Shown here: piece by piece, positions 7,082-63,910 of the stretch
Numbering within the stretch: the first letter of the stretch is position 1
How the letters are laid out: every line of letters starts with the position of its first letter
Source: Ceratodon purpureus
Lineage: Eukaryota; Streptophyta; Bryopsida; Pseudoditrichales; Ditrichaceae
DNA: 64,000 bases
Assembly: GCA_014871385.1 (NCBI GenBank)
Contig: CM026426.1
Coordinates: 51,177,238 to 51,241,237, forward strand
Reading direction: 5' to 3'
Notes under the pieces: model-generated
Database searches by the model: none
Seen by the model: the letters and a program-made list of their open reading frames with translations, nothing else
What the model was told of the DNA's origin: nothing
Made by a program: the position numbers and the translations under genes

Positions 7082-7594
7082 GAGAAGGAAGAACGGCTCC
7101 AAAAAGGAATTCACTACCTTAACCGAGGAGATTAACCGGGAGAATGAAGTGGCACAGCAGAAAGAAGAGGAGCTCCAAAAAGCCAACGTAGCCGACTATA
7201 CACCTACGGTCGCAGAAGGACCTTTCCTGGATGGCGATTGGGCTGGGTTCCATGATATGGACTGCTTACACGAGACACCCAAGCTTGTTCTAGAGAGACT
7301 TTGGCAAAGCCAACCATCTCTCAGCCTTCAGCAGCGGTTAAGACTGTCAGTAGGCAAATCTATAGTCACCTATTATTGTGTCTTTAGAGGAATTGCTTGA
7401 AGTAGCCTCCAACCTTACTGAGTACGTCAGAGCGAAAGTATTTCCAAATACTCAACGTCAGCCAAGAGTGACATTTGAACCTGTTCAACATCAAAAGACT
7501 TCAACATAGCCACAGCCTACCACAACACCAGCACATACACTGAGCTCCAAGGAATCATCGGTACACCCTACCCTGGTTGTTGGTACGGTAGATA

Positions 7595-8386
7595 TTGATC
7601 GAGGCCTTCCGGGTTACTTCTGTGGAGGTGGGACAATCAAAAATAGATAACGTACTGCTGGATGGAGGATCTAGCATCAACTTAATCACAGAGGAGGAGG
7701 GATTTCGATTGGGTCTGAAGGAACCATCACCAACACCCTATCGACTGCGTATGGCAGACGAGGCCGTGGTGGAACCGGTTGGGTTGATACGGAATGTTCG
7801 GATTTATATCCATGGTATTCCGTACAATATCAGCCTAACTGTCATCAGGAATAAGGAGGTCAATGAAGCCTACAGCATGCTACTGGGCCGCCCTTGGCTC
7901 ATAGATGCAAAGGTAACTCATGACTAGGGGAACAAACTGGTTACTATCTAGGGTAACGGTACTGTCAAAACGATATCCATCAACCAACGAAAGGGACCTC
8001 TACCCAAACTGCTAGAAGTACTCGTATGTTACAACTTAGCTAAAGGGCTAACAGACGAAGAGGAGGATCGGTTCTTGAGAACAGAGGAGGATATATTCGT
8101 AGTGAGAACTATTACACTACCAAAGAATTTGAGTATCCCACTTGCAAACGAGGCCAATTGGTCTCCAGCCGACCTTTGCAAAACTGAATTTACCGCAGCC
8201 GACTTAAGAGCCGACTTGGGCAGCGCTGACTTAGCAAAGGTACCTACACCAGTTCCGGATTCTGCCACTTACCCAGAGCATTTTTATACCTTCACAGAGG
8301 GTGAAATGTTGGTTGATGAAACACCTGTACGAGACAAGCTAGGGGACATGCACGTAGCAGCGTGGAATTTGACTGAAGAGGAATAG
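7595..8386 (+). pseudogene. Element B protease and linker
   Basis: Aspartic-protease region of pol. Residues LLDGGSSINLIT carry the retropepsin catalytic Asp (D-G-G-S in place of the common D-T/S-G), followed by the flap-side segment GLKEPSPTPYRL. A TAG at 7925-7927 breaks the frame after THD, where copy A reads Trp. The linker continues to 8386, where a second TAG follows the residues LTEEE at exactly the codon where element A also has TAG. The protease would cleave the Gag-Pol polyprotein. Confidence 0.75.
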
Positions 8387-8428
8387 TTACGCAAGATCAA
8401 TGTCGGCACTGACGAGTCTCCCAAGATC

Positions 8429-10064
8429 GTGAAGATTGGTGCTCAATTGGAGCCGACCATAGCCAAGGCAGCTGAGGACCTATTGGAGGAGTATACAGAT
8501 GTGTTTGCATGGACATACAAGGATTTGAAGGGCATACCTCCATCGGTGGCTCAACACCGGATTGTGCTGGAGAAGGATGTTCCGCCCATTCATCAAGCCC
8601 GTTACAGGATGAATCCAAATTATGCCAGCATTGTCAAACAGGATATTGACAAACTGTTGGCAGCAAGGTTCATAATACCAGTCGAGGAAGCAACCCGGCT
8701 CTCACCCGTTGTTGTTGTTCCTAAAAAATGGTCAATTAAGGATTTGTATTGACTATAGAAAATGAAATGCTGCTAATAAAAAGGACGCTTACCCTCTACC
8801 ATTCACTGACGAGGTGTTAGATACTGCGGAAGGTTACGAGATGTACACCTTCCTAGATGGTTGGTCCGGTTACTACCAGATTTTGATTGCTCCTGGAGAT
8901 AGGCACAGGACTGCCTTCATCACTAATTGGGGCGCCTTTGTATGGGTAGTCATGCCTTTTGGTCTGACTAATGCACCGCCGACCTATCACAGGGCTGTGA
9001 ACAAAGCGTTTAAGGAATACCTGGAACGATTCATGAAATTGTTCCTGGACAACTTCACAGTATACAGTGACACAGCCGACCATCTACAGAAATTGCGCCT
9101 CTGCTTTGAGAAGTGCAGGGAATCTGGCATCAGTTTTATTCCAAAGAAGTGCGCACTTCTTGTAACCTTTGGTATCATACTTGGCCATGTAGTTTCCAAG
9201 GCTGGAAAGATGCCGGACCCTAAGAAGATTGAAGTTATCCAAGAGATGCCCTGACCACAGCGCGGAGCCGACGTACAAGTTTTCAATGGGTTCGCACAGT
9301 TCAACAAAATTTATGTTAAATTCTATGCTCACATTATGGAGCCCATAACTAAACGGATGTGGAAATCCGAAGGGTTTGAGTGGGTCCACAAGTGCAAAGC
9401 TACGTGGTTGGAGATGAAGGACAGATACACCAATGCACCAATCCTAGTTGCTCCCCGATGGGATTTGGAGTTTCATGTACACACCGATGCATCTGACATT
9501 GCCGTTGGGGCTTTGCTGGCTCATAACCAGACAGGGAAGTGTGACCAGCCAATCTCTTATGCTTCCCGGTTGCTTAATTCTGCTGAACAAAATTATACTA
9601 TCACAGAAAAAGTAGCCCTGGCTATGGTCCCTACTTTGACTAAATATCGCCATTATCTTTTGGGAAACAAGGTGGTTTTCTATGTCAATCATATGACCCT
9701 AGTTTATTTGGTCAACAAACCTCAAGTGTCTGGGTGGATTGCCCGTTGGCTTTTGCTGTTTCAAAAGTATGAATTCACAGTGGAGTACAAACCCAGCGGG
9801 ACGCATGGCGCAGCCAACTTACTCAGCCGACTGCCTAACGGAGAACCGCCTACAGGTGTACCCGACCAACTTCCTGACTCTGGCCTGTTCTATATCGCTC
9901 CTGAATGGTTACAAGACATCACCGACTACTTGCGCAGTGGTGAACCGCCTGTGACAATGCCCAAGGATGAAAAGCAAAAATTACTGCTAAGAGCCCTTCT
10001 TTATACACTGATGGCGGGGTGTTGCATAAGAAGCGGCACGACTTGGTGCTGTGACAAGTTTTAG
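8429..10064 (+). pseudogene. pol: Element B reverse transcriptase and RNase H
   Basis: RT starts at about 8429 and is broken by a one-base loss in the A-run at 8723-8728 (VVVPKK should continue NGQLR) and by a TGA at 8763-8765. The RT resumes at 8814-9254. The catalytic box reads FLDNF instead of FLDDF (AAC at 9051-9053), so the second metal-binding Asp is gone. RNase H follows (9336-10064) with DAS, TITEK and YLLG motifs, but the third acidic position reads YVNH instead of the usual YxDH. A stop at 9253 (TGA) separates the RT from its connection domain. Confidence 0.85.
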
Positions 10065-23152: not shown

Positions 23153-23160
23153 CCTAGAGG

Positions 23161-23898
23161 GGGAGAGCACAATAAAGTGGACCACAAAGTGCAAAATGTG
23201 TTCACTAAGAAGTGAATATGAAGTGTGCTGTTTTTAAAGGCTCAAAGCTGATTTTCAGCATTTTGGTCTAGTTTTTGAGCATTTTAGTCACTTTCTAGGG
23301 TGTCATGAGGTATCTTTCACGAATTTTCACAAAAAGAACATCCTCAATTGAAACTAAATTTGACCACTAGTTCTAAATCATGAAAGTGAACCTTTCCAAA
23401 GTCTTAATTTCTTCGTTTGGTGCCTACTACTGTCTTTAGAGGATTTTATTTTTTTCAATTTAATAAACAATGTTCGTTTAAAAAAATGCACAAAAAGAAC
23501 CCTGGAAGTGACCCTCTTTAAAAACATCCTTGCGGGACTTTAGGAACGCTTCATAAATTAATGAGTATATGAATTGACTATTTTAGAATACCTCTTAAAC
23601 ATATAGAGGGCCCCACTTCATCAAAAGTGATTTTTAGATAGTTTTTGATTCTTTTATAGTCACTTTTTCAAATGACTGCATTCACTTTGCTTGGATTTAA
23701 AGCCTTCATACAATAACTTTAAAGTGTCTACTTTGCTCAAAACTTTTCCAAGTTGCAGAAAAACTAGTTGAGAATCTACATTAGCAAAAACAATTGACTT
23801 CAATTACATCTTTCCATCACTTTTGTGCAATTTTTGCAAAAGGGCTCAAACTTGCAAATAGCTAAGCACTTTTTTGGTCCACTTTATTAAGCTTCCCC
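23161..23898. mobile_element. MITE family 1, copy 1
   Basis: A 738-bp non-coding repeat with inverted ends: GGGAGAGCACAATAAAGTGG at the left, and GCTTAATAAAGTGGACC in the reverse complement of the right. A related copy lies at 51902-52640. Flanks CCTAGAGG (23153-23160) and CCTAGGGG (23899-23906) form an 8-bp target duplication with one mismatch, as expected of hAT-type insertion. It has no ORF of its own. Confidence 0.8.
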
Positions 23899-44815: not shown

Positions 44816-45277
44816 TCACCTGGTCAACTCCCAGCAAGTGCTAACTCTTGCTGCCGGCACCGGTTTTCCACAATCACGTGTCTCTCCCTTCGCACTAACC
44901 CACACCCACTCTCCCAAATCAGCTGGAATCCTCTCAGCCCCAACTCCCGCTGGCTGCAACCAATTTCCCAAGTGCGTCGCTTCTCCTGTAGCGCCAAACA
45001 CCTGCTGGCTGCACTCACTCTCCCTACGAAGTTCAAAAACTTTGACACTTACTCGTCGTCGGTGGAGGAGGTAGGTGGGCGGACTCATAATTTCCTCGTT
45101 CAAAGTGCTGGCAGAAAGTTTGTTGACAAGAGCAGTCCGCTCGAGATCCGGTCCTTGCTCCGCCAGTCCGATGTCAATTCGACACTGTAGATGTGCCCTC
45201 CACACGCCTCGAGGGGAGGTCATTGGTCCGAGCCCCCGTGGCGGTTGCTGGCACCACGGTGGCATGTGCTGTGCCAC
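44816..45277 (-). other. Open frame near the right end of X, uncertain
   Basis: A 153-codon minus-strand frame (also open on plus at 44792-45190). Composition is mixed, no motif is recognised, and the X word occurs several times. I list it as the content of this stretch, not as a supported gene. Confidence 0.2.
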
Positions 45278-45362
45278 GTCAAAAAGTACGCAGGCAGCGC
45301 CTGTTTTTTTCTCTCACGTGCCGCTTACACGGCCTTTTTGTGACCCGATTTTTCTCCTAATG

Positions 45363-45677
45363 TCGATGAACCTTGTCGAAGTCGACTGGATGATTCTATC
45401 CGTTTTCAAGGGGTTTAAGAGGCAGGTTTAGGGTTTTGAGAGATCATTCTACACTAGAGCAGGCAGATTCAGAGAGGTTTGAGTGCTATTAGGATTTGCT
45501 GTATCATGTTTTGGGGCTGTTTTGATCCATTTTATGCAGTTTTGACCTCTTTTGGCACTTGTATTGTACATTTCCTGCAACCTATGAGTGTTTGGAGCAC
45601 TTAGTTTAGTTGGGTTTTGTTGGGTTTTGATGGGGTTGTGAAGGCTAGGGTTTAGTGGTTAAATCCTCCCTTTACCA
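45363..45677 (+). repeat. 5' LTR of C, second part
   Basis: Continues the LTR after X: 'gtcgactggatgatt', then 'aggctagggttt' and 'aaatcctccctt' as in the LTR of B (18350-18390), ending in CA at 45676-45677. A primer-binding-site candidate TGGCGACCATGC follows at 45679-45690 after a one-base gap. Confidence 0.8.
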
Positions 45678-45678
45678 T

Positions 45679-46782
45679 TGGCGACCATGCTTTAGTTCGT
45701 ACCATGTGATTTCCTGCTTGTTGTAGGCTGTTCCACACACTAGAGAGGTCTTGAAGTACACAAATCAGGACTGCAGAGGTGCAGCAGTGACTGTCAAGAG
45801 TCTTTAAAGGTGGTGAGCTGCTGTAAGCGTAATTCCGAGGTGCTCAACAGATGCCGGCAGAGTGTGGGAGTCACTGCAGTGTTAGAATCGGCCAGCTGAG
45901 TGCTGTCCAGCCACTGGCAGGATCCCAAGACTTCTGAAGTGAGGAAAAAATGTTGCAGTAGAAAGGGCAATGGCGGCAAAGAGTTTTGAGGTGTTTTCAA
46001 AGGTGGAAACATTAATGCTGCAACGGTTGCACTCCAGTACGTGTCCAGGGAGCAGTAGTAGCAGAGGCGGCTCTCTTGCAGGCTGGTGGACGCAGGTGCT
46101 GTGAGGAGGTGGAGGGCCAGATTTGCCTTGGCATCAATCCTTGTGAACTGAATGCAGTTCAAGAGCGAAAGAGGGGATAGGGCTGCTACAGGTCAGATTT
46201 GTATTCCCACAGTAAAAAAGGACAAAAGGTAAGTAACCCGAAATTTTAAGAATTCAAATTTCAAATCTCAGATCCAAAAATTTAGGATCTTAAAAATTTG
46301 AATTTTGAATTTTGAATTTTGAGGTTGGCACAGGTCAGAACAGACTGGTAATTTGGGTTATTGATTGCATTTGGGCAAGTTTTGGGTGATGTTTGTTTCA
46401 AATATTGTCAAAACTGTAATCAACACTTCAACCATGGGACATGATTTTCTAAAGGTCACTATAGTGTGTAAAAGGGTATAGGAACAAGTTAGGGGCGATT
46501 TTGCAGCACTGCCTTGGTTTGTTCCTATTTGCTAAAAAAAAAAAAAAAAAAAAAGTGTCTGTAAACACTAATTAGGCCACACAGCCGATTGTAGGGTCGA
46601 TGAGTGCTATAGTGGCAGGGACTATAAAAATGTAAGGGAAGGAGGCAAGTATTGGTAGTTGAATGATTGGAGGAGGCCAAGCAGAGCCGACCGCAGCAGA
46701 CATGAAGTAGCAGATGCCAAGACTAGGAAGAATACACAGTCGACTGAACGCAGCCAATTGACAGTATCAGCCGTTCACACCC
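45679..46782 (+). other. Element C leader with primer-binding-site candidate
   Basis: Starts with TGGCGACCATGC, which has the TGG expected opposite a tRNA CCA end; the tRNA is not identified. The stretch holds the AAATTTGAA-like words shared with the leader of A, and a 21-base poly-A at 46534-46554. No gene. Confidence 0.5.
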
Positions 46783-48997
46783 ATGGAGGAAGGTGACTCG
46801 AATGATCTGCAAGCTGAGAGACAAGCCATGGAGAGGTACAAACTATGGCTGCAACATGATGAGAAGACAATAGAGCCGACGTCACTTGAGGTACGCAGCC
46901 GACTTAGCTCGTAGGGCAGTGCAGCTATGTAGGAGGGTGAACTCGTTGACATGGAGGTTGAAGATGACATTTCACCATCAATTGGGAGGACACAGGAGAG
47001 CCGATTTGAAGAGGGAAGGCAATTCAAAAAAGGAAATAGAGTAATAGTCATTCTGATCAAGCCAACATTCCCTGGAGATATCAGGACAGGAGAAGGACTA
47101 CGTCATTCAAGGGGGACTTCTCCCCTGCAGTGGACAACTACAATACATTATGCAAGGAGAGACATCAGATACAAGAGGTTTTTGCGGAGCCGACATAAAA
47201 GCGGAACCGACCTGGCTACGCAGCCATCTGCCAAAAACTATTGAGACTGTGCCAGCCGTATTTCAGAACTTTAGGCAGAAGTTGGAAGAAACCAAGAGTC
47301 GATCAGCTCAAGAGCATGGGCAAGTGAACCACCAAGATACTAAACCTGGCAAGAATGTTCACTTCTTAGATGAATTTCGACTGCAGTCGGGATGGGAGCA
47401 AGAAGAAGAGGACCAATGGGCACTAGAGGCCTTTGCGGCGAACTTACTGGCCAAGAAGGAAAGGGCCAGGCAACACCAAGTAAGTCAAAACCAAGGCACG
47501 CCGGACCCAGGAAAGTACCTCATGCAGCTAGAGGCTTTGCAACAAGGTGCACCATCGGGAGTGGCATCACTGCACCACTGGCATACAGAGCCAGAGTGGC
47601 CAGCGAAGAATCCAATACCACAGGTGGCCGACTTTGACCGCCGTGTTGAAGAAGCAATGTAGAGATTGGCAGCACAGGAGTTGGCAGCACAGCAGTCGGC
47701 AGCGCAGCACTTTGCAGCACAGCAGTTGGCTACCTTGCAGAGAGAACAAGAACGGCTCAAACGGGAGTAGCATGAGCATACACGAATCGAGGATTTGCGG
47801 AAGGAGCAACAAAGGAGGCAGGAGTCTGAGCGTCTTGGAGAGATACCAACAAGGCCCCCTAATTTATCTACTTTTCATTTAGAATCAACTGTGGGCAGGA
47901 GCGTTTCAAGTCCATTGCTTGCAAAGCCGACCTTGACACCACATAAGTTTTCTGGATATTTGGGCAGCCCAACAGGTAATGTGCACGACGCGCGACAGCC
48001 GACTCAGTCAGTATGGTATCCTGGGCAATCAGCACAGCCAGCTGTTGGAGACTCAATACCTGGTCCAATTGATGTAGCCCGGTCATTGGATGCTTGGCCT
48101 ACTCCAGCACCTCCGGGCTATAGTTTTGGTGATTTCGCGCAAGCCGACCAGACAGTGTCGACTGCCACTAAGATACAGACGACTTATCCGGCCACTTCGG
48201 CAAGATATCCCCTTGAAGTACCCGTAGTGCCCACAGCCAACAATAAGTTTTGTCCTCCACTACCACCAGTCAGTGCAGAGCGGAAGCAATTACCGTACCG
48301 GGCATATAAGGAGGAAACTGACCCTGATGCTCACCTGAGGCATTTTGACAAGTGTGTTTGGTACAATGGAGAGACAGATGAGATTGTGATCATCCTCGTG
48401 TTTGGAACAACCCTTGTTGATAAGGCCCAGAGCTGATTTGATAATTGGCTGGATCATCACCCCAATTGTACGTGGGAGGAGGCAAAGGAGGCATTTAAGA
48501 TGTGATTCAGAGAGCAAGATTCTGATGAACAAGTGTACATGACTCTAAGGACCTTCAAACAAGGTGAGGGGGAGAAGGTTCAAGACTATTATGAGAGGTT
48601 TACAAAACCGATCAAGTGTTTGCAAACAGATGTTGGAGAAGGCTTCAAGCTGACCTACTTCAGGGCAGGCCTGCTGGACTACCTGAAGGTCACCACAAGC
48701 GCCCATACAGCCAACACTCTGACTGATTTGCAGGAGGTAGTTCGGCATTGTGAAACCAACTGCATCAATGCCTTAGGGGAGGAATTGTACTTTCAAGCCC
48801 GGTATACAGAGCCGACTACTGGACAGCCGACTACCTTACCAGCTCGGGCGGAGGGAGCAGACTCACATAGTGGGAGGTATTGCACAGTGTGCAAGAAATA
48901 CGGCCATGACGATGCTTACTGTTTTTTCAACCCAGCCAACCCGAAGAATAGACTTCCACGACCTGAAGGTCCACCGATTGTGGGGTCGACGAAGTAA
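46783..48997 (+). pseudogene. gag: Element C gag
   Basis: Begins ATGGAGGAAGGTGAC, equal to the gag start of A (MEEGD-ND--AERQ-ME). Order: charged N-terminus (46783-47240), Gln/Ala/Glu-rich helical part (47150-47790), Pro/Ala/Thr-rich middle (47795-48260) and gag core (48290-48997), ending in the zinc knuckle CTVCKKYGHDDAYC. In-frame stops are at about 46914, 46931, 47660, 47768, 48434 and 48503, so no functional protein is made. Gag-like packaging signals for help by a complete relative could still have mobilised it. Confidence 0.8.
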
Positions 48998-49116
48998 CTG
49001 CTCAGCAACACGGCAGCAACTCTAGCCGACCTGTTAACAGCTGACCTCGAGGATACCAGCATGATGGCTATGGCCATATCGATACTTGCTTTATTTGCAA
49101 CGAGACCGACCATCAA

Positions 49117-50163
49117 ATGCCCAACTGTCCTTACAAGTTGAGGTTTGAGCAGTTTGTGGTATCTAGAAAACTTGGTAGTAATACTGTGGGTGTCAATAAT
49201 GTGGAACTGCAGGAGCTGGAAGTGGAGGAGCTGGAACTACAAGAGCCATCTGAGGTGGCAGTTTCTCTAACCAGAGCAGCAAGACTGGAGGTTGGCCTTC
49301 TGTTGGAAAACAAAGAGGCACATGAAGAGCTTGAAGGGGCCACAACAGCCAACTTGGATGCCAACGCACCTACGGCACCAACTTTGGATGGTGACTGGAT
49401 TGGATTTATTAACCCTGATTGTCTATAGGATATCCCAAAGAAGGCGCCTCATACAAATATGGAGAGTCTTCTCGGAACCCAGCTAGAAGCTTTGGTGCAG
49501 GAGATTAGCCGCCAAATCCTAGAGACCCCCATTACAGTATCGTTAGGACAACTGTTGGCAGTGGCCCCTACTCTCACAGAGTACTTGAAGAGTCAAGTGT
49601 TCCGAGCACGTGCGTGCGAGCCGACTACGTCTGTAGACTCGATTGAGCCGCCTGTACGAGCCGACCATACCAAGCCGACCGTGAAACAGGGTTCACTTGA
49701 GTTGATTCCAAGGGTCTCCAATGATCCAAGGATACAATCTATGGTAATTGTTGGAGCAATGAATATTGATCTTGGTCTCCCTGTGATTTCTGTACAGGTA
49801 GAGGATTCGACCTTTAAGAACGTACTTCAGGAAGAGGGCTCTACAGTCAGCTTGATTACAAAAGAGGAGAAGGTGACGGTACCAGCGTTACAGGAGGCCA
49901 TTGGATTCAAGCAGCGGCTGCTATTTGTCAACACTGCATTGAAGGAGACAATCTTGGCAGCAGAGCAGAGAGCAGTACGGCAGGAGGATTTTCAATGCCC
50001 AACTGTTTTAGACAGTGAGGTCTCATTTGGAGGAGGAAGCTCCCTAGGTGGCTTCTTCGAGCCAACTCCTTTACAGAGCCAACCGCCACAGCCTTCTTTA
50101 GAGGGCTCTCAGGATGATTATCAGGGCGCCACTCCAGCTTTTAAGAAGCTGACTTTTACATAG
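49117..50163 (+). pseudogene. Element C protease remnant fused to ORF3 remnant
   Basis: After gag comes the linker (49117-49428) and a frame from 49459 to 50163. Its first part aligns with the protease of B, but the catalytic D-G-G-S reads E-E-G-S. Immediately afterwards the frame continues as VPALQEAIGFKQRLLFV, the ORF3 motif of B at about 12550. Everything between (RT, RNase H, integrase and the first part of ORF3) is deleted, while the frame stays open across the junction at about 49875. The end is Pro/Gln/Ser-rich. Confidence 0.75.
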
Positions 50164-50440
50164 CCGACTTCTATCGAGCCGACTGTTTCAAACTTAAGCT
50201 CCACCAATGGGCCCAAGGAAGAGCGACACCACCAACGAACGACTTCACGGAAGCAATTAGCATCACTGCTAGTTAGGCAGGGGTTCCATGTGTTTGATAC
50301 CAAGGATTAGTTTTCTTCTCCACCATTTACTAGTGTAGTCAGTTTTTTTTACTCCGAGCGGCTTAGCCTTCTTTCCATCTACCACCCTCTCTTTTGATCT
50401 CCATGCGTTCTGAGGGCAGAACTACCGGAAAAGGGGATAA

Positions 50441-50625
50441 TGTTAACCGGAGATCCAACCGGTCTCTCCCTTTAACCGCATCCAGTCCCCTCTTAGTTTC
50501 ATCCAGGAAGTTTCCCAACATTCATCTAGTTCCTGCGAATGAACTCTGTCACTCGGCTAGATGAACTTTGTCGGAGTCGACTGGATGAACTCTGTCGAAG
50601 CCGACTGGATGATTTTGTCTATCCA
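50441..50625 (+). repeat. 3' LTR of C, truncated
   Basis: Starts TGTTAACCGGAGATCC after the polypurine tract (50427-50440). It contains three tandem units of about 24 bp around GATGAACTCTGTCG with GCCGAC or GTCGAC. Similarity to the 5' LTR stops near 50625, so the last about 250 bp are lost. It is the best available empty-site reference for the X insertion. Confidence 0.8.
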
Positions 50626-51403
50626 TAAGCCTCCAGTATATAAGACATTCTGTTTGGCATGTGATGATAGTATTGTATAACTTTCCTGCCTATCTACTGA
50701 CGACGAGGTTTTTTATTAGTTTGAGTATGATAATCCTAGAGCCTACATCTCCTAATAAAGAAATCATTGACATATACTTGCAGCCTCTTGTGCACAAGTT
50801 GAAAAAGCTATGGGTGGAAGTAAGGAGAAAGTTCGTATGCGAGCCGAGAGCAGAGAATGGAGAGCACAGAATTGACAATTAGCAAAATTTTCAAAAGTAA
50901 AGTAGACCCTACAATCGTGGAAAAATACTAAAAAAAGGCATGATTTTGTTACTTTTTTTAGGGTTTAGAGTATAATACCAAGGAACTCATGGTTATCTCT
51001 GGTAAGAATTTCTTTAGTTTGTTTTCTGAGGTACAAATTAGGGTTGATGTCATGATGACGTCATGCATACAATCCTTTAGTTTTGGTCCCTTATCGGATC
51101 TAGATACGAGTATTCCAGCATCATGTTCTTAGATCACAGCAATAAATTTTGAATAGATAATATAGATAATTCTAAGAAGAAAAAAAATGCGGAAGAAGCA
51201 AAAATAAATGGTCTTAAAACTTCGTGGAATAATTCAGAGTTCGTGTACAATATTGGAGCTGCTGAAACCAAGATGTATACCAAGTCAGAGTGCTTGTCTT
51301 GGTCAAATAATTCTCTGTCTTTAGAGAAGACTAGCGCTACCTTAAGTGTCAAGCAACGATCTATACTAACCTTAGCAGACATCTTTGACGTTGTATTAGC
51401 TCA
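50626..51403. other. A/T-rich stretch without supported gene
   Basis: Sequence right of the broken LTR. Short ORFs on both strands without motifs. No RNA gene seen. Confidence 0.4.
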
Positions 51404-52790
51404 ATGATTTTTGTAGAACTTAACCTTGTACTTGCTAGGGAGTTGTTTGAAGGTATGGGCGATTTATTTGAGGTCGTTGCCTGTGAAACGATTTTACGGG
51501 ATTTGCTTAAGCGGATGGCGGATGGGCCTAACCCCTGGAATAATATAGGTAGTAGTGCAACGCAGGGTTGGACTCCTCCGACGGTAATCACGTTTGAAGA
51601 CGGCGTGAACGCTCGTGCTGTGTCGAAGAGGTGGAAGCGTGAGATTGACAGCAGTCTTGAATACGCATGCCTTCGGGTAGCGAGGTGTGATTACTTTTTG
51701 TACGAGGGTCGCCATTGGAGTCCGAAGGACGATTAAGAAGTTAATCGGTTCAACATCAACTGGAGTGTTTTTAGGAGTTCTTGAAAACTTGCAAATCCAG
51801 TTTACAACGAGAGGTTAGAGACAACGTCCCTTGGAGAACTTAGTTGCATTGAGGTAGATCAGTTGAGGGCATTGCTATGGGCCAATGGGAATCAGGTCTG
51901 GGGGAGAGCACAATAAAGTGGACCACAAAGTGCAAAATGTGACCACTAACAAGTGAATATGAAGTGTGCTGTTTTTTAAGGCTCAAAGCTGATTTTGAGG
52001 ATTTTGGTGTAGTTTTTGAGCATTTTAGTCACTTTTTTAAGGTGTCATGAGGTATCCTACACACACCTTCATAAAAAGAACATCTTGAATTGAAACTAAA
52101 TTTGACCACTACTTCTAAATCATGAAAATGAACTTTTCCAAAGTCTTGATTTCTTCATTTGGGGCCCTCTATTGTCTTTAGATGATGTTTTTTTCAATTT
52201 AAAAAACAATGTTTAGTGAAAAAAAAGTGACAAAAAGTATCGCAGAAAATACCCTCTTAAAAAGCATCCTTGCGATACTTTTGGAACCCTAAATCAATCA
52301 ATGAGTATATGAATTGACTATTTTAGAATACCTCTTAAACATACGGAGGGCCCCGCAAAATTAAAAGTGATTTCGGACAAAACCCTAAACCGTTTTGTTC
52401 ACTTTTCCAAATGAGGCCATTCACTTTGCCCGAGTTCGACGTCTCCGTTTTCCATTGTAAACTCAATGTCTTCTCCCGCAACTTTGAGAAGTTGAAGAAG
52501 ATCAAGTCTACTTTCTGTATCCCAAACTTAATCTTGCATCGACATAACATAGATCCCACTTTCTCTAGTGTTATCGGAAGGGGCTGAAATTGGAGAAAAG
52601 ATAAGCACATTTTTTGGTTCACTTTATTATGCTTCGCCCCATCTTGGATGTGCCGGAAGGAGAGAAAATTTCTCCGAGTGATGGTATCTGGATTTCTCCC
52701 AAGAATAGGTATTATGGCTATGGAAGTGTGAGATGTTCAATGACAGAGAAAGTAATTACCGCATTATATATATTTTGAGCATAACAGTTG
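51404..52790 (+). pseudogene. Unidentified gene remnant interrupted by MITE 1 copy 2
   Basis: 51404-51736 encodes 110 residues (LARELFEGMGDLFEVVACE and RAVSKRWKREIDSSL). Further coding-like sequence follows at 51835-51899 (LRALLWANGNQV) and, beyond the MITE, at 52641-52780 (LDVPEGEKISPSDGIWISP). The last two join smoothly if the MITE is removed, suggesting it landed in an exon. The family is not recognised and the gene is broken by stops between the pieces. Confidence 0.35.
51902..52640. mobile_element. MITE family 1, copy 2
   Basis: Aligns along its length with 23161-23898: same start GGGAGAGCACAATAAAGTGG, shared internal words (GAATATGAAGTGTGCTG), and an end with 'ttcactttattatgcttcg'. The target duplication is degraded; flanks 'ggtctgg' and 'atcttgg' could be diverged copies of one 8-bp site. 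Confidence 0.8.
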
Positions 52791-53367
52791 TAACATTTCA
52801 TTGTTCATGTTACATTTTGAGCATTACAATTGTGACATTTCATCCTTTACATACACGAATACGAACTGGAAATGAGAATCATAACTACTTTAGGGTGTTT
52901 GCAATAGAGTAGACGAAGGATTATGCAATCAACTCCAATTAAATCAAATCAAATCAGATGAAAACAATGATAGAATGAAGCCTCCTTCAAACTCACAACA
53001 TGCTACAATCGCTACTTCCACTCTCAGAACCAGATGACTCTGAAACTCCTTCTACACCCTCTGCATGGACGAATACTAGGACCCTGGGATCAAAAGTAGT
53101 TGGCCGACTAGGAACATATGTAAGGGCTCCGGATTGAAACGCTTGTGCTAAGCCCTGTGCATAGTCCGGAAGTATATAAGGCTGAATCGGACTGGAATGA
53201 AGACGCCACGATGGAATGGACACGAGTATTGGCCTTTGCGGCGGTGTTACCGCAACTACTCTGCAAGAGATTAATCAATAGTGGTAAGAATAAGTGGGTG
53301 AAGATGGAATCAATAAAGAAGCAAAGAGAACTAGCCCTGAAGTTAGAGAATGTAAAGTTGAACTTAC

Positions 53368-54350
53368 AATACTTATCTTGTCTTGCTCTCTTTGGAGGTG
53401 CTTCTTGAACTGCTGCCGGTCTATGATGTTTAGGAGGGCCCATGGCGGTTGACGTAGCCATATACGGTTTGAGAAGGGCGTTGAATATGGCTTCGTCCTC
53501 CTCACAAGCTATAATATGACGACCAATACTCTGGCAAGCTGTGATGGAGGCACCTGAAACACGTAGCACAAGAAAGAAGTGAGTCCCTGTGGAGAAAATC
53601 AGAAACGAATGGAAATGCAAAAACTGTTAATGAAGGATGTCATGTTCCTGCCTTCCACTCAAAGACTATGTCACCGGGCTTGGACATCTCCTCAATTATG
53701 CCCTGCATCATCTTAGGGGCTTTCTCCCTTGGCCCTATCCACGGCACCTCCCCATTCATATCCTGCGATTCTACATCGGTGAAGTTGAGAATGGCATCAC
53801 TCTCGGTAATGTGGAGGTCGTTGTATACGACATAAGATTTCTTCGTTTGAAAAGAGAACTTGGATGGGCGATGGCCACCACGAATGAAGACGCGCACACA
53901 GAACTGAAGAGACTGCGAGACACCAAAATATGTGAGTATAATTAATAAGAAAGTTTAGTAGAATGCAAAGACAAGGAATGATTATGATGTACATACCAAG
54001 GAGCTGGGAATCGTAGGGTGAGCCAAGCCTAGTGCATTGAAGCCCCACCAGTCTCGGTGCTGAACAAAGTCATTAATCTTAGCCTTTTCAGAAATATTCG
54101 CAGCAAGGTCTTGGTCGTTGTTGTGGATTATGCAAAGAGCACCATCATACTGCAAGTAATGTCTTGCAAATTCGAAGAGGTCCTCCAAGTACTCCTTATC
54201 ACGTTTGTTCCAAGGTGGAGTGACGTAGGGGGGATTGGATATTGTAGGGACCGGAAGATTCTCAAGAATGTCAGCAATGATCAAGTCAAATCCCAAGTGA
54301 TTCTGCTCTTTGCATCTTGGCGGAACTTGGTTCTCGCGGCATGCTCCAAA
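53368..54350 (-). other. Exons with N4/N6 methyltransferase-like domain
   Basis: 54350-53997 encodes FDLIIADIL, then NPPYVTPPW (catalytic DPPY-type motif, about 54224-54235), then LFEFARHYLQYDGALCIIH. 53912-53648 encodes WIGPREKAPKM and PGDIVFEWKAG. 53563-53368 continues GASITACQSIGRHIIACEED. The order, catalytic motif first and SAM-binding G-loop plus acidic strand end last, is that of beta-class DNA methyltransferases (N6_N4_Mtase family). The G-loop is atypical: FEWKAGAS in place of D-x-F-x-G-x-G, so activity is uncertain even in an intact relative. Confidence 0.6.
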
Positions 54351-56386
54351 CTTGAGTAAACAAGAAAACAGAGTTAGACATTATAAGATTTACAGTAATG
54401 TACGTATCAAAGGGAAAGCACTAAACAACGGATCATACCTTTCGAGTGATGTCTAGAGCCTTGTTCCATCCGTGATCGCCACCCACGTCAGAGAGCTCCT
54501 TGTGCCGAAGCAGAACTAAATCCATAGAGGAGTTGATGACATTAACTTGTGTGGAATGCAGAGTTTCAGCGGACGAGGTAGTCTGCGGAAATTGCTTGGC
54601 CTTCCTCTGCTCAAGGAGACTTCTGGTGATCTCGGAAGCACTGATCGAGGAAGGAGCCGGCGAAGAAGTTGAAGAAGGCTTTGTAACGACAATACCTGGA
54701 GAAGTCTGTGGTGCCTTTTGCCCGGGCGCGGAAGACTCCGCACCGGTTTGCTGTGATGCCTCTGATTAAGAACGTAGTGATTTAAGTCGCCGCCCTCTCC
54801 TTTTCTTCAGTGGAGGAGCAGATGATTGATCCTGCTGTCCTTCGTGATCGTCTGCACCATCCACCGAGTCTTCCACCACCACCTCACCCCCATCGTGTAG
54901 TATCTTGACGTCCACCTCCGAGTCAATAGTGAAACCACTTGAACAATCAAGATACCAGCATCCAGCATCCAGGTGAGTAGCTTTGTACCTTATCATCTGC
55001 TGGGGAGAATAGATACAGTGGTCCGAGCTTCTCTGCGTCCAAGCACTGAAGTACTTGGGGAGCTGCTGGACCGTGATGGCCCCCTTCAATAGAAGCTCTC
55101 GTTTGAAGTACCTAAGGGAAGACATTTAGAAGGTTAGTATCAGTAATAAATGGAGGCAAAATTATAAAATGCAAATGCGATTAAGTTAGGTAACGTACCG
55201 GTAAGTAACACGCTTGACAACCTGAGCGGTTCCAGGGAATTTAGCAAAGTTGGCCTTCTTGTCGGAGGGCTTCTCAGCCTTCTTTCCAATGAACGTAGGG
55301 AAGGCCTTGTCCCACAACAGAATACGTGAACTTTTGACAAAATCGCCCGGCTGTTGGACATCAGGAAATGCCCTCCAATTGATATCGAGGTTTTCCGCCT
55401 TGAATATGTCCTCGACTTTGTTGATGACGGCTTCCTCCAACTGTAACACAGAATTCATATCAGTAGCGACGAGAAAGAAATCGGTGAGATAATATAGGAA
55501 CAAGGAATTGGAAAGGTTTCTTATGAAACTATACCCCAGCCCAAAATGAAGCCCTGTTCAACCAGGGGTCAAATTCGGTATCCTTGAATTCAGGTGGTAG
55601 AAATCTGTAAGACATTTGGGAACTCAGAGATGAGTTCCACCACCTCAACCAACGAGCCTTGTATTTGGCCTCAACGGCCGCTGGAACAATCTTCTAAAGT
55701 TTATCCAGTGACATCTCAGGTTTAGAGTTGTCATTGAAATGGCGATTGATCTGCAAGAAATACCGAAGTTTTAAAAAGTATTAATATAGAAATTGTTGTA
55801 GTGATACAAAATAAAGAACTAAACAATAGTGAGGGAGTCACCTCATTGAGCAAGTCGTCACCATTCCTCGGATTTGCAATGGCCAAGTACTTGATAAAGT
55901 CCTTCTTCTTGATGGTTTCGACCATTCTATCTGATGCCTCATTCATGACATCCCAAACCGCAGTCGCAGACTGCTCATTTTTAGGTGTCTTGTTGAGGTA
56001 GGCCCTAGCTGCTTCATCCAAGGCCACTGCGATTTCCCGCTGTAGAAAGATAATTAAACCTTAGAAAATTCCAAAAATATCAAAGAATAATGAGCAAAGA
56101 GAGAGAGGAGTTAAAACTTACTCGGTACAGAAATGCGATGAAAACTTTAGTTGTCAAGGGAAACCACGAGGGATTAGGTGGCTTGTTCTTCAAACATGCA
56201 TAGAATTCTTCAAATTCCTCCAGCTTCATCATTCCGAATTAGCGGATTCGAAACAATTTTGCAAGGAGATTACTCTTCACGTGGTCATTTTCAATCGACC
56301 TGAATAATAAAAAATACGTAAGATGAATAATACAGATTAGATAGGCTTACAAATGAAAAAAATGGAAACAAAACACAAATACATAC

Positions 56387-56970
56387 CAGTTGATGTCATG
56401 CATTGCGTGAAGAAGATTGCCAATATGGCCGCGGGGGTCTAGTACAATGCAGTGCACAGATATGTGCCATGATGGGTTGTCTGCATGGTGCTTGTTTATA
56501 TGACGAAGCCATGCTGAGAGGCGATGGTTACCTTCCCAGACAAAAAACATCTTGCCCAAGAATTGCGTCCACTCCTTGTCTCCTTGAATCTCATATTCAA
56601 AAGCATCATTCGCGTCCCTCCCTAATGGACTCCAATCGGCCATGACCTCATCCGTAACATCTCTTGTCTGCTCTTCGTTGTTGTATATAGAGATGTACAT
56701 GACGCGGTCTCCATCTCTATATCCCTTTACGAAGTCCCGCTCCAAATGATGTACCCCCATTTCACCCACTGGTCTAACCTTGGCCATTGAGATCATCCTG
56801 CACAGTGGCACCAACAATATCGACTTCTGCGATGGTTTGATCCTGAGGCTGTTGATGACGGCTATAAAGTCCACCTTGTATTGTTTTTGATGCTGCAATT
56901 CCCCTTCTATAGCACTCTTCAAGTCTTTCGGACAAGATAGTTTTGCCAACACCTCTTGTGTTTGCGTAAC
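56387..56970 (-). other. Exon with ParB/sulfiredoxin-like domain
   Basis: Acceptor TTGGCAG, donor GTATGT. The segment VRPVGEMGVHHLERDFVKGY resembles the first box of ParB-type domains. FVWEGNHRLSAW carries the G-x-H-R box at about 56522-56533 that binds nucleotide phosphates in ParB and sulfiredoxin families. The segment after it (HISVHCIVLD, then HAMHDIN) completes a strand-helix pattern. Assignment rests on motif and spacing only. Confidence 0.5.
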
Positions 56971-57307
56971 CTGCCAAAAGATGTGCAAATTAACAGAAGA
57001 ATCACTTTCAACGAAAGTCATACAAAGAAGACAAGTATATAAAAGAGAATAACAACATAATTTTATACTGTTAACTCTTTTGTAACAACTCAATTATCAT
57101 CTGAGTTTGCAGGAACTATCTACGTGATTGACGGCTATAGTACTCCTTAGACTGTCTACAGTTCCAGTGACGGCGCCTCCTCCAAAATCGCCTAGTTTGT
57201 TGGACAGGGCACGGCAAAATTGCCGGAAGGGCGAAGACCACATGGGCCGGCCTCCTCACTGTAATAGGCAAGGAAGGAAAGGGTGGAGACATAGGCAGTG
57301 AGCCCTG

Positions 57308-57391
57308 TGGAGGACAAGTGGGCATGTAGTCCGAGGAGGTAGGCTCATACACTGGGGATGTAGGCATGTACACTGGAGAGGTAGGCATGTA
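57308..57391 (-). other. Four RNA polymerase II CTD-like heptads
   Basis: 84 nt encode four consecutive heptads: YMPTSPV twice, then two degenerate ones starting YEP and YMP. The pattern Y-x-P-T-S-P-x follows the YSPTSPS repeat of the largest Pol II subunit, with Ser2 replaced. It lies in the third exon of the methyltransferase-like gene, before the ParB-like domain. Confidence 0.75.
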
Positions 57392-57839
57392 CTGTGGAGA
57401 GTGGACCTCGAAAGGACCACTTTCCACACCCACAGGGTTTGCTACATCACAGGTACAATAGTGCTAATCAAATGAATCCGAAAGATCGAAAACATTGATC
57501 ACAGAAATGGGGGAAGTGGCGGACATCTCAGGAGCATTGGATGACACTTAGAGTAGAAGAAATGAAGTGAGAATTAAATTCTACTTTCATAAGAGTAGTA
57601 AACAATGAATAATATAGGCCGCACCCAACTTCATAAATCTGTGAAATTCATGGTCATTGTCAAACTAATGAAATACCTTGGTCTCTGCTAGCGTCGGGTC
57701 TTGAGGTTCGCTCTTCAAATTATCTTCATCGGATTCCTAATTCATAAAAAAAGTAATGACTATTAGAAAAAACAGCAACCATCAAGACTTAAGTTTCACT
57801 TATTCCAATTTTATATATAGCAAATAGAACCATCACAAG

Positions 57840-58600
57840 GCTCATGGAGGGGTGAGCCTTTGCCACTGCAAACAACACACCGCTCCCCGCAAGTATGTGG
57901 CAGCTCCCCGCCTATTGTCGTCGACCACAGTAGGCTTGGGGCACCTTGCATTTAAAAAAAAAATGCCGCATGAAGAGCATCTTCGGCTCAGCCCTGGAGG
58001 GGTGAGCCTCCGCCCTGAATGCACAATCAATCACAAGAACCCAACAGCCAACACCCAACACGCATACAACCAGCAATCCACAAACAGGTCGCAACCCAAA
58101 AACGATTCACAACCCACAAAGAATCGGCAACGTCAACAATCACTCAAGTTGAATCTCCCCAACCCCGCATATCACAAAACCCGCTATGCCACCATTGTGG
58201 AGTACCTCCCTGTCTTCGTCCTCGACGTCCTTGTTCTGAACCCTTCGAATACGCTCCTCATCCGAATCCTTCCCACTTCCGAATCCAACATTGTCTGCTC
58301 CTACAGATTTGTCTCGGTCAGTGCTTCCTTGCGCCCCATTCAATTCCACCTCCCTTTCGACTTCTTCAACATCCTGCAGACGCCGATTCTCTAGCGCGTT
58401 GCGTTGCCGCGCATCACCACTAGATTCACCTCCGGCCTCCATGATCGCAGCCCTCACTCTCCGTGCACACCCTCGCAACTCCTCCCCCTCCTCTCCTTCA
58501 ATTCGAAATCTCTGTGTGCGAAGAAGCGTCAAGTCGAACGCACCCACCAATGTCAAGTGAGGTCTTAAAATCTTATCAAACCAGTCCAACTTGCAGTGTG
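57840..58600. other. Content of the large second intron region
   Basis: Sequence between exons 1 and 2 of the methyltransferase-like gene. 'ggaggggtgagcct' occurs twice (57846 and 58002). An acidic minus-strand frame is at 58589-58140 (149 codons, with EEGEELRGCARRVRAAIMEAGG). It could be an additional exon of the host gene or part of a later insertion; I cannot decide. Confidence 0.3.
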
Positions 58601-58993
58601 AACTATGGCTCGGGCCAAGGTCAATGTAAGATGCTCATTTGACTTTTACTATCCCAAGCTGGTAATTCAATAATGCATCATCATTTTCTCATCCAATTAG
58701 CCACCATACGGCCTATTAGAACGTACGGGACCTACTAAAATAACCATTGCCTCATTATTTTGATTAGTTCTCGCCCACAGAGAACGATTACATTAAAAGA
58801 AGGTTTTTAGCCCCATTAATTACATGTACAAGGGAACGTGGTACTGACATTTACAAGCATTCTATTATAATCTGTCGAAGACTCAGCATAAAACTCTTAT
58901 TTTGACAACTACATTCTCTATTACCTAACGACGTACACCACCAAGTTCTAATGTTAAGCTTATTTCAATAAAATATTTTCGACAAACACATGC

Positions 58994-59211
58994 TAAGCCT
59001 AATCAAATTCCATTGACCCACAAACAATGATTATACAGTGCGAGATACTTACTAGTTCTGAGTCATAATAAACTATTTAACTTTATTCAATGAATATATA
59101 ACTTTAACATTTTCTAAAAAACGTGCTTACAATAACCTAATTCTATTGACGCACACACAAACGGCATTTGCTAAGACAGTATAGTACACTTACCAGTTCA
59201 GAGAGACAATC
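58994..59211 (-). repeat. Imperfect duplication of a splice-donor region
   Basis: Two blocks of about 75-80 bp (58994-59068 and 59130-59211) share 'cctaat-c-attgac-cacaaaca' and a donor context reading, on the minus strand, 'gaactrgtaagt'. The outer block holds the end of exon 1; the inner copy offers a second, possibly unused, donor. Confidence 0.4.
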
Positions 59212-59703
59212 GTTGTCGGATTGTGAATGCATCTCCCTTGAGTGAGAATCCTTCTTCCCAAACGAAGGCTGCGGGGACTCTACTCTTTGACTACAATTAA
59301 TTTCTAAATCTTCCATTTGTTCTTCACGTAGTACCTCACTACAAGGTATTCAGTGCTCCTGATTCGCAACTCCACTGTCTTCCAAGATCTCTTCCTTTAC
59401 CTCAACTAAACTGTCTAGTATGAGTTTACGAATGCTACAAAACTTCAAGGCTACAGGCAGAGCCGCTCCTCTCCTCTTCAGGGGTGCACTCCAGTGATCA
59501 CCTTTCAAATCTACCTTCTTACGTGATGCTCTCCTCTTTCTCGCTCTCCTATTCGTAAAATCTGCCTTACATAGTTTTCTTCTCGGTTTAGGAGTGACAT
59601 AAGTGGAGGGAGTAGACCCTCCACTATCCTTCATGTGTCTAACTAGTGAGAGAACTCTCCTCACAATATAGCTCTCCTTCTAACTTCCCTTCATCTTATA
59701 CAT

Positions 59704-60140
59704 CCCAAACCTTCAACCCCTCTAACTCAGCCCTACATATTTACCTTCTGCTTAACCTACTTAAATTAATCAAAACTATTAATAAATGCAATTTGAATTA
59801 AAGCTGATGAGATCAATCTATATTGGAATAAGAAAAAAACAAGCCCACAAAATAATAAAAGATTTGAATTAAGCACTTGGATACTTGTTTTAAATATGGA
59901 AGCAACTGACGGCTCCCTGTAATCTTACCAAACTTGACATCAAATTGAATTGGTTCCACAATTCAAATATTAAATGCGTAGTTCTAAAAACTCCCACCTA
60001 GTATACTTGGTCCTGCAAAAAGCTGCATTCTAATTAGTTAGCGCCGTCTCTCTTTAATCATACATTCGTTACCTAACAAGATGAATTATTATCTAGTCGT
60101 CCACATGGACATTCCAACTGGAATAAAATGATCAACAACG
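59704..60140. promoter_or_regulatory. Shared upstream region of two divergent genes
   Basis: 437 bp of A/T-rich DNA between the starts of the methyltransferase-like gene and the MULE transposase. By position it is a bidirectional promoter. I see no single convincing TATA box. Confidence 0.35.
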
Positions 60141-63100
60141 ATGCATCATACCTCTCACTTTGCCCTGGCAATACCGCTTCGCCAGTACACTGACTCTTCT
60201 CCTCTTTCCGCTAGTACGATTGAGTTTCCTGAAAACATCGGTATGATCTGTCTCTATGCCCAAGGCATTGGAATCCCTCTTAGGTTTCACGTAGATGACG
60301 ATGGTCTAGCTACAGTCTCCTCTCTTCGCCTGAGTCTTAGATTCCATTTCCGTGAGGATACCATCAGTATAGAGGAGGAGATGTTTGATGACGTTACTGC
60401 CGAGGTTACCCACACCCTCGGGCAACCTTCAGTGAGAGATGAAAACATTATGTTGCACTGGAGACTCCTCCCTGGATCCTATAGAGTCTATGGTCTTACT
60501 GATTCTCTGATGGCTGCATCCACTGAGATCCTCACCCCCCGTCGCTCTTCTACTTACACAATTCAGACTCCCTTACCTCGTGATGTCAAGGTCAAGGTCG
60601 AGCCTGGTACTGAAACTTCAGACGTAGAGAAACCTCCCCCTCCGACAGTCATTACTCTCTCCTCTGATGACGAAGTCAGTCCCGTCAAGTTCGTGCCTAA
60701 GGTCCACGCTGATGCTCCTCCTTCCAATGTCTCTCCTCCATTGTCCCAGGTCACAGTTAGCATTGTTCCGCTCCTTCAACAGCTTGCAAAGGCGCGTGGG
60801 TCAAAAAACATTTTGAAGAAGATAGACTATTCCACTATTAGACACGAGAGAGTTGAGTACTTGCCTGCGAAGTTTGATGGTCCCATTCTTTTTGAGTTGC
60901 CCCCAGCTGCTGCAAGATCCTCTAAGCTCTTCGCCAAGTCAATGCAGGGAATGGACAAACAATACGACGGACACTTGTGGACCAAGACCATAAAATCAAA
61001 AACGACTTCGGACTCTCTTTTCGAAGTTCCACCTGCGTCCGATGGCTGCGCTGCAGCAACAAGGAGTGTGACTTCCTGAAGCGTGTTCCCAAGATCTTTG
61101 AGGTAAACGAGACTGAGTTCGAAGGCTGTACCCTGCAAGCTTTTCTCATGGATCAGCCTCCTCCACCTGACTCCACGCTAGTGTGCAAGGTATGTAAAGA
61201 ACCTCCGTCATGTGTAGCTACATGCGAGGCTAAGATTTATTACGTTGTGGGCAAACCGAATCAGACTAGAGCTTGTATTCACATAGGAATAGATGATCAT
61301 CCAGTGAAAGTTGGAGACTACAGAGACTCTAAAGCAGAGATTAGTAGCTTAATAGAAGAGCAGGTAGAGATGAACAACAAAGCAACAAAGAGCGCCGTTG
61401 TCCTCGAGGCGAGCAAACTCCTCATCGGGAGCTACCTTCTACAGCCCGAGGATGCACCACCGAGGAAGCTGACCATGGAGGAGCTGGTTCCTGTTTTGGA
61501 TCGTTGCAAAGACATGGCGTCACCAAACATCCGCAACAAAGTCGCCACCTTCAAAAAATTCAAAAGGTACGGAATCATGGACGGTATTACCAAGCTCTGT
61601 GGAAACAGTCTCTGGGCGTACATCCAGGAGAATAGGTTTCCTGGTCAGGGATCTATGCGTGACAAAGTCTTCGTCTTCAAGATGTCGGAGGTCGGGCCGG
61701 GAAGTGGTGTCGACTTGGTCAGGCGTATGCAAGCTGGTGGCGACTTGGAGAACGCATGGATCATGTTCGACCATGTAAAACGCGTCAAAGGCTGGTCGAC
61801 GATGGCGTGCCATGTGTACGACACCACCTACTGCCGCGTGATGACAATTGCCACTTGCGACATGCAGTCCGAGGACACGGACGCCCAGCTTGTCTTCTGG
61901 AAAAACCTGAACCTGGTCATGGAGAACAATGGCGTTGCAGCGCCGAACTTCAAGGGGTTCATGGCGGATAACGCACAGGCGAATTGGAATGCAGTGCGAA
62001 TCCTTTACGGCAATGGCAACAAAGAGGACCCAATGGAGGACCGGGAGAGGTCGTGCTTGTTCCACTGGACTCAGAACATGGTGGCGTATACGCAGAAGCA
62101 CTTCCCCGAAGAACTCTGGGAACAGCACAAGAAGATGTGCACTCAGTACAAGAATGCGACCAGCAAGGCAAAGGCGGAAACTTTGTACCACGCGTTGCGA
62201 GCATGGTGGGCATCGACCGAGGTCGTTGGCGAGAGCGGGCTCATCAAACTCGATCAGTGGCTGTCATTCTGGCACCACCGCTTCCGCCAGTGGGGGGATT
62301 CATGACCGAGGTATTATCTCTGCACTCTCTTTTCATGTTTTTGATACTGGTTTCCTAGCCCTAACCTACAAAACTCTAATCCGTGAATCTAACGTCACCT
62401 ACTGTCAAATCTGCAGAAATTCACGAAAGAAGAACTCACAGAGATGCCCACCTGTAACCTCGCCGAAACAGTTCACAACAAGTGGCTCCAAGCTTCTGGA
62501 AACAACGGGAACGACCTCTACGTTGCTACCGTGGACGATTTCGTTCGGGCTTTTCTTCAGGTTGTTAACTACTACCAGTTCTTCAAAGGTGACGTCGGCG
62601 GAACAGGACCGTCAAAGAAGGAACTCAGGCTCCGGATGGCTGAACACAACGCAAAGAGATGGGGAAATCCTACACTGCGCGATAAGCCCATGCTCAATAT
62701 GCCAGGCGCGGATGAGTTCTGCACCCGTCAGCCTATCATGCCTGGAGCAGAAGTCTTCGGTTCACAGAAGCGAAAAGCCGACGTCCCCATCGGAGCTGAC
62801 AAGGAGTCTCATTGCCCGGTCAAGACAAACTTCTCACGCCCAAGAGGCCCAAGACGTGCCGTCAGGGCTCGCCCTATGCAGATGCCTGTCATTGTGGAAG
62901 ACGACTCCGAACACGACCCCGAGGTAGAAGGTACCCAATCTCCTGCCCCGGAAGTTGATTCCCCTTTACCTTCACCAGTGAACAAGGGCGGCATTTGCCA
63001 TGTCAACGCGGTTGAAGAAACTAAGGTGGACGTGAAGGAGTGGCACATTTCGAGACTTCACAAACTTTCTGCGAAGTGCTGCTGGGCCCAAAGAGCTGAA

Positions 63101-63910
63101 ACGAAGAAGAAGTGCACTGAGAGAATTGTCAGGGGGCCCCATTGCACAGCTGCCCCGACCTACACAGGGCTTTGGACTAACTACCGCAGGAACACAATCG
63201 AGAAGACATAGTTCTTCTTCTGCTCTGATGATATTGAGCGCCGCGTGAAAGGCTCTAAGCGCAAGTGGGTAGCACACTACTCAAAGGACCAGGAATTCCC
63301 CTCCATTCCAGAGGTGTGGCCAGTGAAACTTGGTACTAACCTAAAACTGACTGAGATTCTTGCCCTCGAAGCAGCGGGCTTTCAACTTCCGCCGAAGAAA
63401 CCGGTCTCCCCAAGACGCCTGTTCTCTTCCGCCCCGCCCCCTGCAAATCTCAGCTCAGTGCTAGTCCCTGCAGACGCTGACCGCTACCCAGGCAAGAGAG
63501 ACAGCAAGATGGTGAAGCGCACTGCCACTCATCCCAATCAAGCGCAGCGACTCTCCATGGGCTCCTCCGAGTCTCTTAAAGCGCGCCTCCGTTCCGTCAC
63601 CATGATACCTGAGCCGGGCCACGGTTGCATCATTGGGCTGGATTCGGGCGTCGCTCCACACATCACACGGTACCAGATTACCATCAGTTCTTACCCTAGT
63701 TGCACTTGCCCAGCATTCAAGAAGACAATGACTACGTTCCGTGGCAAGACTCAGTTCACGTATTGTAAGCACCTATACTACATACTCTTGAAGGTCTGCA
63801 ACCGTGATCCCAAAGCCGAGCTTTTCATCCATGCGCCTACCTTCAGCTTCAACGAGGTCAAGCTACTCTTAGAGAGTAGAATCTTGCGTCACCCCTTGGC
63901 GAAGAAGTAG
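60141..63910 (+). pseudogene. MULE transposase with SWIM zinc finger
   Basis: Exons 60141-about 62312 and 62415-63910; the intron has GTATTATC and CTGCAG borders. N-terminus: globular part, then VITLSSDDEV, which fits a SUMO-interacting motif (about 60650). A zinc region follows (LRCSNKECDF and TRACIHIGIDDHPV), as in WRKY/GCM1- or FLYWCH-like fingers of MULEs. The DDE core has IMFDHVKRV, then GFMADNAQANW, then CLFHWTQNM. A basic Pro-rich linker leads to a SWIM finger CTCPAF---YCKH (about 63700-63770). Defects: a frameshift near 60970, a one-base loss near 62290, and TAG at 63209-63211 with the frame open on both sides. The enzyme would cut and join DNA at MULE ends; the copy is dead. Confidence 0.8.

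Follow-up and report, generated by a model that had tools for sequence, protein, structure and literature searches.

Does a eukaryotic DNA transposon carry a DNA methyltransferase of its own? This question is raised by a locus of Ceratodon purpureus (contig CM026426.1 of assembly GCA_014871385.1, positions 51,177,238–51,241,237), which we analyzed as a single stretch of 64,000 nucleotides (hereafter, the window). A prediction made from the sequence (hereafter, the original prediction) had paired a transposase of a Mutator-like element (MULE) with a ParB-like/DNA-methyltransferase-like gene on the opposite strand. Both genes are present, on the minus strand at 59682–52993 and on the plus strand at 60132–63910; they diverge head-to-head from a gap of 449 bases (given as 437 bp in the original prediction), the former encodes methyltransferase motifs, and the product of the latter has a predicted Mutator-type transposase fold. 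Because both genes are broken, the copy in the window is dead; this decay was not mentioned in the original prediction. We consider it fairly probable that the locus is the remnant of a eukaryotic Mutator-like DNA transposon in which a multi-exon accessory gene, divergent from the transposase gene, encoded a large DNA amino-methyltransferase, which would mark the element's own DNA.

A decayed 13-exon gene on the minus strand

We spliced the minus-strand gene by hand from exon-sized open reading frames and obtained 13 exons and 12 introns (3,918 nt spliced). All intron phases agreed, forming one consistent phase series, and 11 of the 12 introns were of the GT–AG type, the remaining one (after exon 11) being GA–AG. 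The coding frame contained 6 stops (4 internal, 1 before the first ATG and 1 terminal), whereas the two alternative frames had 139 between them, and the GC content was 0.40–0.52 in exons versus 0.24–0.43 in introns. The 13-exon structure described in the original prediction was accordingly upheld. The product comprises approximately 1,290 residues, with the first ATG of the frame at 59634 and the stop codon at 52993–52995. The exons are as follows (all on the minus strand):

59194–59682: exon 1, lysine/arginine-rich N-terminus; in-frame TGA at 59350–59352
57677–57736: exon 2, from the splice model
57260–57463: exon 3, four tandem heptads resembling the C-terminal domain (CTD) of RNA polymerase II, at 57391–57308
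56387–56970: exon 4, GNHR box at 56532–56521; putative ParB-like domain
56122–56299: exon 5, in-frame TAA at 56239–56241
55842–56039: exon 6, from the splice model
55535–55750: exon 7, TAG at 55694–55696, a stop or an alternative acceptor
55199–55440: exon 8, from the splice model
54439–55111: exon 9, in-frame TAA at 54766–54768
53997–54350: exon 10, catalytic motif NPPY at 54236–54225
53642–53912: exon 11, motif X (GPREK from 53735) and the start of motif I (EWKAGT from 53660); donor GA instead of GT
53373–53553: exon 12, the remainder of motif I (ASITACQSIGRHIIACEEDE)
52993–53260: exon 13, C-terminal tail

The decay of this gene thus consists of the internal stops in exons 1, 5, 7 and 9 and the damaged donor of exon 11. 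Since the TAG at 55694 could alternatively form an in-phase splice acceptor, the internal stop count is either 3 or 4.

Intron 1 (57737–59193) is much longer than the remaining introns (1,457 nt). A minus-strand open frame of 164 codons occurs in it at about 57830–58640, together with a 20-mer that is repeated, and this stretch is possibly a nested insertion.

The methyltransferase domain and the regions preceding it

In beta-class amino-methyltransferases, the catalytic motif (N/D/S)PP(Y/F/W) comes first and is followed by motif X and the S-adenosylmethionine (SAM) loop, or motif I. The C-terminal part of the minus-strand gene has the same order, with NPPY at residue 987, GPREK at residue 1126 and motif I at residue 1151 of the spliced frame. 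The SAM-loop-like segment noted in the original prediction starts at 53660, is split by an intron and continues at 53553. A profile search, the check suggested with the original prediction, matched the spliced C-terminal part to PF01555 (N6_N4_Mtase; E = 0.0015) and PF05175 ('MTS'; E = 0.0022), both under their cut-offs. The PF01555 scores of this part (19.0 bits) and of its relative P0001 described below (23.0 bits) were lower than the curated cut-off of 26.7 bits, so that under Pfam's own criterion neither counts as a member of PF01555.

Stronger matches were obtained with the PHROGs DNA methyltransferases phrog_3008 (E = 5.4e-8) and phrog_6952 (E = 2.7e-7), together with three weaker ones, and weak matches with the NCBIfam entries CcrM (0.0047), PRK13699 (0.0097) and PRK11524 (0.063). 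Most profile matches fell in the motif X–I end, and phrog_498 covered a longer stretch (0.0013). Among PDB sequences, DpnA alone aligned sensibly, over motif X–I (E = 0.41). A tblastn search of phages with the methyltransferase query returned 83 records at E ≤ 1, all of which covered less than 80% of the query; every one of the 20 matches listed of these 83 lay at the motif X–I end.

A database search with the methyltransferase core (196 candidates at E ≤ 1) found one relative, P0001, at E = 4.8e-39. This protein of 194 residues, from a 1,137-base contig, shares 55% identity over 44% of the query and retains the segment of exons 11–12 with motifs X and I; this conservation indicates that the methyltransferase segment did not arise by chance. 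By eye, the extra residues of P0001 coincide with two intron positions of the window gene, those after exons 11 and 12, and P0001 looks like a genomic read-through. The glycine loop reads WNAGTG, then the extra residues, then ASIKAAQAVGRH in P0001, versus WKAGTC ASITACQSIGRH in the window; the AGTG of P0001 sits at an intron boundary, and the AGTC of the window lies beside the damaged donor. Of 5,775 candidates in a homology search with the spliced protein (residues 290–1230 of an earlier splice model), not one reached E ≤ 0.001, and scans of viral contigs detected no relatives with any of four queries (NPPY exon, GNHR exon, transposase alignment and methyltransferase alignment).

As far as motifs and profiles can tell, the motif order and the PHROGs matches support the original assignment of the C-terminal domain as a DNA amino-methyltransferase of the N6-adenine/N4-cytosine kind. 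N6 of adenine appears the likelier target, given the NPPY motif and the adenine-type names among the matches.

The GNHR box lies 2.3 kb from NPPY, close to the 2.2 kb given originally. GNHR-like boxes occur in ParB/sulfiredoxin proteins. The GNHR region had no match in Pfam, NCBIfam or PHROGs, none among PDB sequences at E ≤ 10, and a single chance-level match (E = 0.9) in a tblastn search of phages. A single-sequence structural model of exon 4 placed the box in a strand–helix–strand–helix–strand order, although the model was poor (predicted local distance difference test score, 49.5) and its structural matches were uninformative. The ParB-like label of the original prediction was therefore not demonstrated by these searches; it probably applies to exon 4 on the basis of the GNHR box and a precedent in Ectocarpus, discussed below.

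An unexpected feature was found in exon 3, whose heptads read YMPTSPV, YMPTSPV, YEPTSSD and YMPTCPP. Against PDB sequences, they matched RPB1 at E = 2.4e-27 (a value inflated by the repeats) and a six-repeat CTD peptide at E = 1.9e-6. The heptad units are 21-base DNA repeats and thus are not independent of one another. The pattern Y-x-P-T-S-P-x was fitted by 2 of 360 cyclic orders of the composition of one unit, and elsewhere in the window (six frames) Y-x-P-T-S/C occurred once, as a lone YRPTS. Speculatively, and with only a slim chance in our estimation, the accessory protein might be a transcription-coupled self-marking enzyme: the heptads would imitate the polymerase tail and recruit tail-binding factors or allow the protein to ride with the polymerase, and the DNA-binding and methyltransferase parts would write N6-methyladenine (6mA) or N4-methylcytosine (4mC) on transcribed copies of the element. 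If true, this would represent a transposon-borne anti-silencing system that combines a bacterial mark with a mimic of the host polymerase tail.

The Mutator-like transposase and its relatives

The plus-strand gene is represented by open reading frames at 60132–61079, 60926–62305, 62393–63211 and 63212–63910, with one frameshift between 60992 and 60998 and a second after 62296. Its features are as follows (all on the plus strand):

60132–63910: Mutator-like DDE transposase pseudogene; its two coding blocks are separated in the relative L001 by an intron-sized gap
61763–61783: first catalytic Asp (MFDHVKR)
61958–61987: second catalytic Asp (FMADNAQANW)
62054–62074: CxxH motif (CLFHWTQ)
62456–62485: presumed catalytic Glu (NLAETVHNKW)
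63209–63211: in-frame TAG, where L001 has Glu
63701–63784: SWIM-like zinc finger CxC...CxH

The transposase belongs to a large family (246 proteins), and it was 95% identical to one database protein, P0002, over the part compared. The residues D514, D580, C609 and H612 were invariant in 19 sequences and conserved at a level of at least 90% in 83, and the catalytic Glu was seen in the window and L001 only. The best structural match of the family model was ISCth4, of the IS256/Mutator type, which supports the MULE label and the assignment of the protein, as modeled, to Mutator-type DDE transposases with an RNase H fold related to IS256/Mutator. The Mutator type given in the original prediction was therefore borne out by this match and by the D, D, CxxH and E residues; for the SWIM part, the zinc finger is retained in L001, and PF04434 was matched at E = 0.063, below the cut-off. 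Among the 19 family members, none matched PF10551 at E ≤ 1 and one matched PF00872, at 0.18; the transposase profile found no PDB sequence at E ≤ 10.

With the transposase alignment as the query, prokaryotic genome contigs yielded one locus, L001 (4.1 kb), filed under the uncultured Synechococcales genome AVDCRST_MAG81. At L001:14–3521, the relative consists of two open blocks separated by an intron-sized gap. Because this gap is intron-like, L001 is probably eukaryotic, and it probably represents eukaryotic contamination of a cyanobacterial bin. The methyltransferase protein had no match on L001, a locus that begins inside the transposase.

A probable single mobile element, its precedents and its alternatives

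We considered whether the two genes belonged to one mobile unit, and infer that they did from their adjacency, their shared decay and the precedent described below. No inverted repeats were seen in the window, which reaches only 90 bases to the right of the transposase, and no target duplication (8–11 bp in MULEs) was found, although no search was aimed at one because the ends of the element are not known. A comparison of these last 90 bases with positions 45,000–52,993 gave no inverted match of 12/14, and five shuffles gave 0–2. The right end of the element may lie outside the window; the single transposon carrying both genes, as originally proposed, was thus not demonstrated.

Approximately 530 bases to the left of the minus-strand gene (51900–52429) recur at 23159–23690 in the same orientation with 84% identity, and this repeat may border the element.

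The methyltransferase class itself is already known and is not new. In Ectocarpus, the 21.5-kb element Sola1-1_Ec32 encodes a 1,104-residue ParB-like and N4/N6-methyltransferase protein on the strand opposite the transposase, for which self-marking was proposed (PMC12477816); the same paper credits similar proteins in green and red algal transposons to Iyer 2011 and Petroll 2025. By description, the window gene resembles these as an opposite-strand accessory gene with an N4/N6-methyltransferase domain, about 1,100–1,300 residues and a proposed ability to bind and mark the element; however, its transposase is Mutator-like rather than Sola-1, and its ParB domain is putative. The pair therefore looks like a MULE-associated variant of this accessory class, by analogy, and may be an ordinary further member. 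No MULE with a ParB/methyltransferase accessory gene was among the matches listed from openly licensed PubMed Central papers, and a word search of the main text of a survey of MULE diversity (PMC6446971) found no word starting with 'methyl'.

Other systems share parts of this arrangement. VANDAL MULEs also have an additional gene with a presumed effect on how the element is silenced: their VANC proteins bind the element that encodes them and bring about the loss of silent marks. VANC is credited with mark loss rather than described as a methyltransferase, unlike the protein proposed here (PMC10398659). Bacterial ParB-methylases, such as Bce_0392 of B. cereus, fuse a ParB domain to an adenine methylase (PMC5512222), whereas the window gene is eukaryotic and intron-rich, with long N-terminal and middle regions, and its ParB domain is putative. 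Retrotransposons of the DIRS type with Dam-like methylases are likewise mobile elements encoding an adenine methyltransferase, although of another element class (PMC5890265). In bdelloid rotifers, a bacterial-type N6_N4 methyltransferase, N4CMT, acts in a eukaryote on transposon DNA; in contrast to the window gene, it is host-encoded and has a chromodomain and SPPY rather than NPPY (PMC8885841).

Several results weigh against a self-marking Mutator-like element: the copy is broken, the profile searches gave no independent support for a ParB domain, the PF01555 score is under the curated cut-off, the glycine loop has AGTC where P0001 has AGTG, no inverted repeat was found, and the pair is known from one locus, L001 being silent on the neighbor of its transposase. 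The domain might instead methylate protein or RNA, since NPPY is also the motif of PrmC/HemK enzymes and PF05175 was matched; we regard this as very improbable because motif I follows NPPY, in the permuted beta-class order of DNA amino-methyltransferases, and the best-matching families are DNA methyltransferases. Pack-MULEs capture host genes, as is well established, and the 12 introns are expected of a long-resident nuclear gene, so that a captured methyltransferase without a role in the element's life might be envisaged. The 13 exons in one open phase series, however, are no fragment, and other transposons were reported with the same protein type in the very paper that names Pack-MULEs (PMC12477816), leaving such a capture with a low probability.

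A weightier, though still unlikely, explanation is that the methyltransferase gene was a host gene or part of a different transposon, and that the Mutator-like element adjoins it by chance or nested insertion. The failure to find shared inverted repeats or a target duplication and the presence of other repeats in the window are compatible with this explanation, and the comparable gene in a Sola-1 element indicates that a methyltransferase gene of this kind can accompany more than one type of transposase; the two genes, however, diverge from a short gap and are both decayed, and the Ectocarpus element shows the same antisense layout (PMC12477816). It also seems doubtful that the mark limits the element's activity or aids silencing, the kind of repressive role proposed for N4CMT on bdelloid rotifer transposons (PMC8885841), as N4CMT is encoded by the host and contains a chromodomain, whereas the parts scanned here gave no chromodomain match and the gene adjoins a transposase.

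Other repeats in the window include two inverted copies at 3–2815 and 5973–9685 (76% and 73% identity in two pieces), with a reverse transcriptase RNase H domain (PF17917) in 9255–10064; they look like a Ty3/gypsy-like retroelement.

Under the favored reading of a self-marking Mutator-like element, the accessory protein would be held on the element's own DNA by its basic N-terminus and its central, probably ParB-like GNHR region, and its C-terminal domain would methylate an exocyclic amino group there, with N6 of adenine a likelier target than N4 of cytosine. Such a mark might keep copies of the element in permissive chromatin, which 6mA accompanies in many eukaryotes (PMC12695648), or beyond host silencing based on 5-methylcytosine; the enzyme would thus achieve by writing a mark what VANC proteins achieve by mark loss. 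A nuclease role is also open, because the ParB part of one bacterial ParB-methylase has nicking activity (PMC5512222).

Should the pair be confirmed in intact copies, Mutator-like elements would join Sola-1 and other algal transposons as carriers of the ParB-type methyltransferase accessory module, and unrelated DNA transposons would repeatedly have acquired the same kind of DNA-marking gene. The long-standing question of whether 6mA or 4mC is written by transposons themselves as a means of escaping host silencing would then become testable by long reads.

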